Positions 1,508 to 18,365 of a DNA stretch of 42,846 nucleotides are shown piece by piece; positions within the stretch are counted from its first letter, which is position 1; the number at the start of each line of letters is the position of its first letter. A model generated the notes under the pieces. That model saw only the letters and a list, made by a program, of their open reading frames with translations, was not told where the DNA came from and did not search any database. Position numbers and translations under genes: made by a program. The stretch comes from Candidatus Saccharimonadota bacterium. Its GTDB lineage: Bacteria; Patescibacteriota; Saccharimonadia; Saccharimonadales; UBA10212. Where the stretch lies: positions 1-42,846 of the forward strand of contig JACPKG010000021.1 of the NCBI GenBank assembly GCA_016187175.1. The letters are read 5' to 3'.

Positions 1508-2392
1508 ATGGCAGTAGCCAATGTAGATCCCGTTAGAAGTAAGTCGCCTAAGGCGACTGCCGGTTCGCAAAGTACGAACCGGACTTCTAACGGGATAGAT
1601 ATTAAAGAATTGTTAGAGGCCGGCGCGCATTTTGGTCACCAGACTAGCCGCTGGCATCCTAAAATGGCGCCTTATATACACAGTAAGCGCGACGGCAGCC
1701 ACATTATTGATCTAACCAAAACTGTCGAGGCGCTGCATCACGCCCTGGAGTTTCTGGTCAAAACCGCATCAGAGGGCAAGCAGATTCTACTGGTCAGCAC
1801 TAAACGCCAGGCCAAGGAAAAAGTTAAAGAACTGGCCGAAGCTACCGGCATGCCATACGTTACACAGCGCTGGCTAGGCGGCATGCTGACTAACTACAAC
1901 ACTATAAGTGGACGCATCAAGTACCTGGTTGATCTAGAAAATAAAATGATCAGCGGTGAGCTGGAGAATCGCTACTCTAAATTGGAGGTCCAACGTTTTG
2001 CCGAGCAGATAGAAGTCATGAACCACTTATACAGCGGCATTAAGGAAATGCCTGCCAAACCCGGCGCCGTTTTTGTGTTGGATATGCTTCACGATATTAT
2101 TGCTGTTAAGGAAGCTCGTAAACTGGGTATTCCAGTCGTTGGGCTGAGCGATACTAACGTCGACCCTTCACTAGCGGACTATCCTATTCCGTGTAATGAC
2201 GACGCCACCAAAACGATCAACTTGGTGCTTAGCTATGTTCAACAGGCTATCGAAGAAGGTAAGTCCAAAATCAAGCGGCCAGCGGCTGTAACCGTTAGAC
2301 CATCAGAAAAAACCCAGTCGACAGCCAAAAAGAGTACAATTAAGGAACAGGCTATAGAGCCGAAAGATGAAGTCGAACCAGTTAAAATATGA
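1508..2392 (+). CDS. rpsB: 30S ribosomal protein S2 with in-frame palindromic insertion at N-terminus
   Basis: IKELLEAGAHFGHQTSRWHPKMAPYIHSKRDG... typical S2; start at MAVANVD preceded by TAAGGA rather than upstream 1457. Confidence 0.95.
   Translation: MAVANVDPVRSKSPKATAGSQSTNRTSNGIDIKELLEAGAHFGHQTSRWHPKMAPYIHSKRDGSHIIDLTKTVEALHHALEFLVKTASEGKQILLVSTKRQAKEKVKELAEATGMPYVTQRWLGGMLTNYNTISGRIKYLVDLENKMISGELENRYSKLEVQRFAEQIEVMNHLYSGIKEMPAKPGAVFVLDMLHDIIAVKEARKLGIPVVGLSDTNVDPSLADYPIPCNDDATKTINLVLSYVQQAIEEGKSKIKRPAAVTVRPSEKTQSTAKKSTIKEQAIEPKDEVEPVKI
1528..1595. repeat. Palindromic MITE-like element E1 (TCCCGTTAGAAGT...ACTTCTAACGGGA), 68 bp, 4-bp flanking direct repeat TAGA
   Basis: Perfect 13-bp terminal inverted repeat enclosing two hairpins (AGTCGCCT-A-AGGCGACT; CCGGTTCG-caaagta-CGAACCGG); TAGA at 1524-1527 and 1596-1599. 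Confidence 0.85.
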
Positions 2393-2853: not shown

Positions 2854-2919
2854 TCCTTAAAACTGCTTGATTTGTTAAGTAATTTTAGTTACTTGAGTCT
2901 GGTAAAATTATGTTATGAA

Positions 2920-3027
2920 TCCCGTTAGACCTCAACCTGCAACTTTCACGCTCGATTTGTGTGGGAGCCGCTTTAATTTGCCAACGGTAAACGTTTTTTA
3001 TAAGTCAAGGGTGAGGTTCTAACGGGA
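2920..3027. repeat. Palindromic MITE-like element E2 (TCCCGTTAGA...TCTAACGGGA), 108 bp, 4-bp flanking direct repeat TGAA
   Basis: Same 10-bp terminal inverted repeat as E1; TGAA at 2916-2919 and 3028-3031; its last base supplies the A of the frr ATG. Confidence 0.82.
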
Positions 3028-3590
3028 TGAACCCTAGTCAGATAGTTGAGGAAACCAAAAGAAAAATTGATGCTGCAACCGTTCACTTACAAGACGAGCT
3101 GAAAAAGCTGCGGACGGGCCGGGCGCATCCCAACATGTTGGACTTCGTGACAGTCGAAGCTTATGGGCAAGCAATGCCGCTTAAGGCAGTCGCGGGCATA
3201 ACAGTCCCTGAGGCCCAGCTGCTTCAGGTTGCGCCTTTTGACCCAGGCAATTTACATGCCATAGCTGAAGCTATACGCAACGATCAATCACTGGGGCTAA
3301 CACCGACCGATGATGGCCGAGTGGTACGTATAGCATTGCCGCCGATGACGCAAGAAAACCGGCTAGCCATGGTTAGGATTGTCGGCCAGAAAGTGGAAGA
3401 TTGCTTCGTGGCTGTACGCCAGGCCCGCCACGACGCCCTCCATAAAGCTGAACAAGCCGAAAAAGACAAGCAGATGGGCAGGGACGAACTGGAGCGTTTC
3501 AAAAAACAGGTTGATGAACTGGTCCTCAGACAAAAGGCCGAAGTCGAGAATCTTGCCAAAGCCAAAGAGCAAGAAATCCTGACAGTCTAA
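3027..3590 (+). CDS. frr: Ribosome recycling factor
   Basis: LKKLRTGRAHPNMLDFVTVEAYGQAMPLKAVAGITVPEAQLLQVAPFD... typical RRF. Confidence 0.95.
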   Translation: MNPSQIVEETKRKIDAATVHLQDELKKLRTGRAHPNMLDFVTVEAYGQAMPLKAVAGITVPEAQLLQVAPFDPGNLHAIAEAIRNDQSLGLTPTDDGRVVRIALPPMTQENRLAMVRIVGQKVEDCFVAVRQARHDALHKAEQAEKDKQMGRDELERFKKQVDELVLRQKAEVENLAKAKEQEILTV

Positions 3591-17750: not shown

Positions 17751-18365
17751 CTAATAGTTAGCCAGTTCGGATTTAATCTCGCCGATCCATTTCTTATGGT
17801 CTTCGTAATCTTCGATAAATTTTTTGTAGTCCGTCCGGCCATCAAAAAGTTCGAGAATATTACCGGGTTTCAGCCACTCTGCTTTTTGATGTCTTAAATA
17901 GAAGGGCAGGCTAGAAAAATTCCAGGTTTTATAATCCTTCGGATTCAAATGTATATAGCGCGAAATATGCACCAAGTAATTATCTCGGTCAATCATCAAG
18001 GCCTTAAATCGACTTTGAAAAACCGGGCCAAGGAGCTCATATTTTTTATTGAAGTACATGCCGTATGTTGTAATCACTGACTTAAATAATTTAGTCATCG
18101 CATCTGGTGTTCGCTGATAAATCAGTGCGTGAAAATGATTTGGCATTAGGCAGAAAGCCAGTAAATCAATTTCCGGCTGAAGCCAAGGATACTCTCGATT
18201 TTGCTTGTCTCTGGAGGGCTCATTACTCAAATATCGCTTAAAAAGATTTAAAAAGACCGTATAATCATCATTGTCACGAAAGACTTCGTTATTACTATGG
18301 CCTCGTCCATAGACATGGTAATAGCTATCTTCAAGATAGATTTTATCTACATTTCTCCCAGCCAT
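17751..18365 (-). mobile_element. REP-associated tyrosine transposase (RAYT; Y1/HUH, IS200-like)
   Basis: YYHVYGRGHSNNEVF ... AFCLMPNHFHALIYQ (HUH) ... SRFKALMIDRDNYLVHISRYIHLNPK. Confidence 0.93.

Follow-up and report, generated by a model that had tools for sequence, protein, structure and literature searches.

Short elements that sit on and rebuild start codons in Patescibacteria, with a GIY-YIG nuclease as candidate mobiliser

Mobile elements usually harm genes or avoid them. In the 42,846-nt stretch of DNA analysed here (the window), a contig of a Candidatus Saccharimonadota bacterium, a 108-bp repeat, E2, lies on the start codon of frr, and it belongs to a family that strikes essential genes at their most sensitive codon and re-creates that codon in the process. 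What kind of element inserts at such a place, what moves it, and how would the gene behind it still be translated? In our view E2 is likely to represent the short, non-autonomous form of a mobile element specific for start codons in Patescibacteria, one presumably moved by a GIY-YIG nuclease and rendered nearly harmless by translational coupling. The features concerned are as follows.

1528..1595, + strand: E1, a 68-bp relative of E2 within rpsB (gene start 1508), with the same ends and in frame
2903..2908, + strand: TAAAAT, -10-like hexamer of the old frr promoter; the same layout is seen without the element in relatives G001 and G002
2915..2917, + strand: old frr start codon, now start of an upstream ORF (uORF)
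2915..3022, + strand: uORF, 35 codons plus TAA, its stop 4 nt upstream of the new ATG
2916..2919, + strand: TGAA, left copy of the 4-bp target duplication
2920..3027, + strand: E2, 108-bp short (non-autonomous) element of subfamily A, aligned without gaps
2920..2929, + strand: left terminal inverted repeat, TCCCGTTAGA
3008..3016, + strand: SD-like AGGGTGAGG, within the 3' arm of the terminal stem
3018..3027, - strand: right terminal inverted repeat, TCTAACGGGA
3027..3590, + strand: frr (ribosome recycling factor), rebuilt start ATG at 3027-3029
3028..3031, + strand: TGAA, right copy of the target duplication

A preliminary description of this DNA had given the ends of E2, its TGAA duplication, the 35-codon uORF and the rebuilt ATG, and every coordinate proved correct when the sequence was read again. 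Within the uORF (peptide MNPVRPQPATFTLDLCGSRFNLPTVNVFYKSRVRF; TAA at 3020-3022) the left repeat is read as ..T CCC GTT AGA (PVR), and the right repeat both contains the stop TAA and gives the A of the new start: the last A of E2, followed by the second TGAA, restores ATGAA at frr. From this ATG at 3027 the product begins ATGAACCCT and is recognised as Pfam RRF (E=5.6e-50). Over its full 108 bases E2 aligns with eight other full-length copies (72-85% identity), and two additional copies match it across 106 and 103; subfamily A comprises 19 copies, drawn from four genomes that belong to a single bacterial family, in a gap-free alignment.

The comparison with frr of relatives that had been proposed as a check shows E2 to be absent wherever the site could be read: frr was matched in 20 relatives, the start was readable in 11, and in none of these 11 (G001, G002 and nine others) is there an element end upstream of the gene. 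The two relatives of the same genus are the most telling, both being element-free, with 6-7 nt between a -10 box and the ATG: TAAAAT-ttaaac-ATGAGCCCC in G002 and TATAAT-taagcta-ATGAACCCC in G001. Six bases separate TAAAAT from the old ATG in the window, again a leaderless layout. Since the same-genus frr sites are empty and carry the box, E2 is to be seen as having inserted within the window's lineage, at a gene of leaderless layout. The perfect 10-bp ends, the TGAA duplication and the empty sites bear out the earlier proposal of an insertion that restores the frr start, and the proposal that frr would have been leaderless beforehand is supported by the promoter layout of both relatives.

How widespread such insertions are was determined by searching the genome for the ends as exact 10-mers and reading the stretches around the matches; copy counts are lower bounds, because an exact 10-mer search misses diverged copies. 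The 10-mer end occurs at 42 sites in the 664-kb (0.66-Mb) genome, and its reversed-letter control at none. Among the sites listed are 18 facing pairs; in 17 of them NTGRR precedes the left end and the right end rebuilds an ATG, E1 being the exception. The genes downstream encode L36, DnaG, MurJ, GatC, GyrB, an ABC transporter, a sugar-nucleotide epimerase (Pfam) and the frr product, so that invaded starts include gyrB, dnaG, rpmJ and gatC. Elsewhere, 9 of 41 genomes searched (this one included) have ATG-bearing elements, all of them in the window's bacterial family; in the set of 66 copies from these nine genomes, which leaves out E1, the ATG is present in 66/66 and the duplication in 58/66. 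A global scan of one-genome-per-species contigs, made with the ends alone and the flanks unconstrained, found at least 118 loci, mostly in Patescibacteria (Parcubacteria, Kaiserbacteria, Nomurabacteria, Saccharibacteria and others) with a few in bins of other phyla; among the matches listed, 126 of 137 copies end GGGA-TG and 97 of 137 have an exact 4-bp duplication. The terminal inverted repeats, the fixed 4-bp target duplication and the empty sites in relatives are the marks by which a MITE is recognised, and G002 has 94%-identical copies at unrelated sites of its genome, the pattern of interspersed movement. Viral contigs contained no copy at 95-125-bp spacing, hence no sign of a phage vector. 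The window had no Rfam match at the gathering threshold, whether to group I/II introns or to another known RNA family, and searches of the open-access PMC literature found no description of start-codon elements, of GIY-YIG proteins with inverted repeats, of MITEs in CPR bacteria or of the end sequences; the family is apparently a previously undescribed one of tiny mobile elements in Patescibacteria.

Some loci depart from the simple arrangement. At L076, L114, L115, L130 and L145 a single start codon, or its vicinity, carries two or more elements in tandem, and it appears that the rebuilt ATG was hit again. L039 (G000:C22 near 28836) has a cluster with variant ends (CCCCGTTAGAAGT...ACTTCTAATCGGGG) that adjoins a TCTAACGGGA end and may be a sister family that has diverged, and L024 (G000:C11:998-1023) is a subfamily A remnant, 3' end only, before a gene start, in which a short frame reaches its stop at -4. 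The copies L078, L113 and L127, found in bins of Omnitrophota, WOR-3 and Stahlbacteria, are flanked by duplications of TAAA or CCCG, not TGRR, and represent either other target rules or mis-binned contigs.

To classify targets, we reconstructed empty sites by rejoining the flanks and took the ATGRR sites of the same loci as background. Among the matches listed, the empty sites fell at gene starts in 69 cases, in the 'genic' class in 12 and in intergenic DNA in 4, against 655 gene starts, 5234 genic and 745 intergenic sites in the background; for starts relative to intergenic sites (69:4 vs 655:745) the odds ratio is 19.6 (p=1e-17). All four intergenic cases have a second copy directly downstream or within about 140 bp, and 11 of the 12 'genic' sites retain an ORF of 95-457 codons that begins at the rebuilt ATG. 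Selection against gene damage is by itself insufficient to account for the scarcity of intergenic copies. Purines occupy both positions that follow the start codon in 56/56 and 82/88 copies (81/88 in the statistical test), compared with 42% of gene starts, an excess that shows a true sequence preference, RTG-RR; there is little target information beyond it. A -10-like box lies 4-10 nt before the old start at 17 of 69 sites of the global set, among the matches listed, and at 9% of other starts (p=0.0004). This agrees, as expected, with leaderless genes being favoured, the majority of targets being without a box. The copies are insertions, and they are associated with start codons.

Placement on RTG-RR with duplication of TGRR has a consequence for translation at either end of the element. 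The invaded gene keeps its own start, because the element's last A and the duplicated TG rebuild the codon, and the old start reads into the element. The left end is free of stops in the old-ATG frame; of the three frames entering the right end, two terminate, at -4 (TAA) or at +4 (a TGA that overlaps the new ATG), and the third gives an in-frame fusion. Among 65 distinct short copies in the window's bacterial family, 91% keep the old-ATG frame open, compared with 19% of composition shuffles and with 0-28% for the five other frames of the same copies; of 63 copies, 59 terminate it no more than 25 nt from the new start, 42 of these doing so at -4 and 14 at +4. One subfamily is inserted in both orientations, and the inverted copies among those listed are open as well, their frame ending at -4 or +4 in four and at -11 in one. 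The peptide itself does not appear to matter: divergence in subfamily A is flat over the three codon positions (0.29/0.27/0.28), and since these diverge equally it is the openness of the frame that is selected, not the peptide, which fits a role in ribosome passage rather than in making a product. A functional leader peptide for the 108-bp subfamily was rejected on account of the same flat divergence. Globally, among the matches listed, 34% of copies vs 11% of shuffles have an open upstream frame, and coupling would appear not to be general beyond the window's bacterial family.

When the RNA of E2 is folded from the old ATG onward, its two ends pair to form a long stem extending as far as the new AUG (-45.1 kcal/mol, z -2.97). 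Across copies this pairing extends beyond the 10-mer by an average of 4.1 and 3.3 bp, against 1.7 and 1.4 bp for re-dealt partners, and exceeds 500 of 500 shuffles. We infer that the stem of E2 would block direct loading at the new AUG, and that passage of ribosomes from upstream would thereby be useful. Ribosomes loading at the old, often leaderless, AUG would translate the uORF, unwind the terminal stem and then reinitiate at the new AUG, leaving the insertion nearly harmless; reinitiation would also explain an open frame without peptide conservation. The preliminary description had frr pass from leaderless to either coupled or SD-led translation. The uORF layout speaks for the coupled alternative, which is favoured over SD-led initiation because a frame stopping at -4 or +4 is general in the window's family and SD-like letters precede the new ATG in only 25 of 56 copies; at E2 SD-led initiation is less favoured still, as these letters sit inside the terminal stem. 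Translation of frr would thus probably be coupled to that of the uORF.

A candidate for the agent of movement is found in longer copies with the same ends. The 274-bp copy at G000:C13:17287-17560 encodes a GIY-YIG protein in frame with the old ATG, its TGA overlapping the new ATG, and the 277-bp copy L184 is built in the same way. In an even draw of 384 genomes from the phylum, 17 have short copies with the ATG and 10, from 10 bacterial families, have copies of GIY-YIG length (244-291 bp); seven of these 10 also hold short copies (Fisher p=9e-9, perfect ends being needed in both classes). Ten of 11 long copies are GIY-YIG by sequence (L245 excepted), with four frames broken. G001 and G005 contain additional full long copies, G008 has a decayed one, and G013 has another whose right end is intact. 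The Pfam GIY-YIG match is strong (E=9.6e-16, 58.3 bits vs a cut-off of 22.6); nine aligned copies have 32 invariant columns, including Y12, Y23-T-G25, R33 and E69, and the nearest solved chains are the UPF0213 proteins BH0048 and EF2693 (1zg2, 1ywl). Divergence by codon position (0.32/0.27/0.60) shows the signature of an ORF evolving under purifying selection. In the intact copies L184, L246 and L275 the host ATG is the only one in frame before the GIY motif, so that these seem to need the host's start codon.

Long and short copies also resemble each other in structure. Eleven of 13 long copies can form a 9-17-bp helix between the region of the LRKR codons and the sequence immediately internal to the right end, and changes in one arm are compensated in the other from copy to copy; at the same site L250 has only 8 pairs, and L246 pairs elsewhere. 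An ACGG-stem-CCT hairpin terminates many short copies outside the window's family, as it does the long ones; a hairpin with the YCCT end motif occurs in 28 of 125 short copies (shuffled mean 2.3), and a subterminal hairpin in 41 of 125 (shuffled mean 14.8). This common hairpin argues that short and long copies are non-autonomous and autonomous forms of one element. Among longer end pairs in the fetched loci there was no transposase-bearing element, and no long pair resembled one intact element; in this non-exhaustive search GIY-YIG genes were the sole coding partners found with family ends. Other GIY-YIG genes read in the genome (C2, C3 and C4) are without such ends.

These observations point to the GIY-YIG nuclease as the probable mobiliser of the family. 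Copies would be moved by the enzyme of the 274-291-bp copies, whose frame begins at the host gene's start codon, and it would probably act on the folded element, through the terminal stem and subterminal hairpin. No GIY-YIG enzyme is known to join DNA ends. We put forward only tentatively the full form of the idea: that a GIY-YIG protein of about 93 residues, read from the host start, is the sole element protein of a transposon that seeks out translation starts, often leaderless transcription starts, makes a 4-bp duplication, uses a folded DNA or RNA substrate, is buffered by coupling and works without a known transposase. An ordinary MITE would be a rather unlikely explanation, one in which an unseen DDE-type transposase acts in trans with a preference for TGRR, the GIY-YIG gene is a passenger and other insertions have been lost. 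Terminal repeats with a 4-bp duplication are indeed the usual mark of DDE transposition, and in G002 and G006, both rich in short copies, no intact GIY-YIG copy with family ends was found. Loss of harmful insertions would, however, spare intergenic ones, which are the very class that is depleted among the matches listed; no other ORF was found between such ends in the fetched loci; and the GIY-YIG gene evolves under purifying selection and has cis structure in common with the short copies.

The remaining possibilities fare worse. If E2 were a small RNA element resembling an intron, removed by splicing between the TGRR copies so as to restore a leaderless message, the covarying stems and the closed upstream frame of many global copies could be accounted for; an open uORF in the window's family would then be needless, the window has no Rfam match, and we regard such splicing as quite improbable. 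A leader peptide or attenuator selected by the host before certain genes is, in our judgement, very improbable: the constant distance to the gene, the open frame and a stop that overlaps or lies 4 nt before the next start are what it would predict, but it does not accommodate target duplications, empty sites, unrelated downstream genes, flat codon-position divergence or two orientations within one subfamily. As to a chance inverted repeat or an assembly artefact, the draft state of the assembly is all that speaks for it, and the 42 sites against none in the control, with the same layout across many independent assemblies, leave it hardly any chance.

The family offers a natural test of leaderless initiation and of termination-reinitiation in bacteria that are mostly unculturable, and some annotated N-termini and short upstream ORFs of Patescibacteria are likely to be wrong. 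If the GIY-YIG enzyme does move the element, this would be a new route of transposition with a very small enzyme; with an unseen ordinary transposase, the family would be one of known kind with an unusual target.

Bacterial MITEs are similar in their shortness, inverted ends, target duplication and lack of a transposase of their own; the present family differs in that its only coding relative found here is a GIY-YIG nuclease, not a DDE transposase, and in that its target is the start codon. The long copies have their domain in common with UPF0213-type GIY-YIG proteins and with GIY-YIG homing endonucleases. Free-standing homing endonuclease genes, as far as we know, have no inverted ends or target duplications and are copied into homologous alleles, whereas here the ORF fills an element with both and is in frame with the host start. 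Subterminal hairpins recall RAYT/REP and IS200/IS605 elements. Those elements are not known to leave a target duplication; here one is present, no gene of their type was found between the family's ends, and the long copies encode GIY-YIG, not Y1 (HUH), proteins. The window itself holds a Y1_Tnp (RAYT-like) transposase gene (17751-18365, - strand; Pfam PF01797, E=3.4e-06), with no exact element end nearby.

E1 is the member that behaves otherwise. It was assigned to the same family as E2 in the preliminary description, and its identical ends uphold this; flanked by TAGA duplications (1524-1527 and 1596-1599), it is the known exception that lies inside a gene, away from the start codon. With 68 bp plus 4 it lengthens ribosomal protein S2 near the N-terminus by 24 in-frame codons, and the one rpsB start compared, that of the more distant relative G008, is element-free. 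In this E1 is like the Rickettsia palindromic elements (RPEs), repeats of about 150 bp that are found across the genes of a reduced genome and tolerated through in-frame translation (PMC10969869); start codons are not mentioned for RPEs in that review. In-frame insertion inside coding regions is a property of E1, almost every other copy lying at a start codon. RPEs become part of coding regions by fusion, whereas the present family occupies and rebuilds start codons and its frame ends at the new start. The insertion sequences of CPR rRNA genes, which carry LAGLIDADG nucleases (PMC11270868), are alike in bearing a nuclease and in being abundant in the same clade, but are group I/II-intron-like, lie in rRNA genes and use another nuclease fold.
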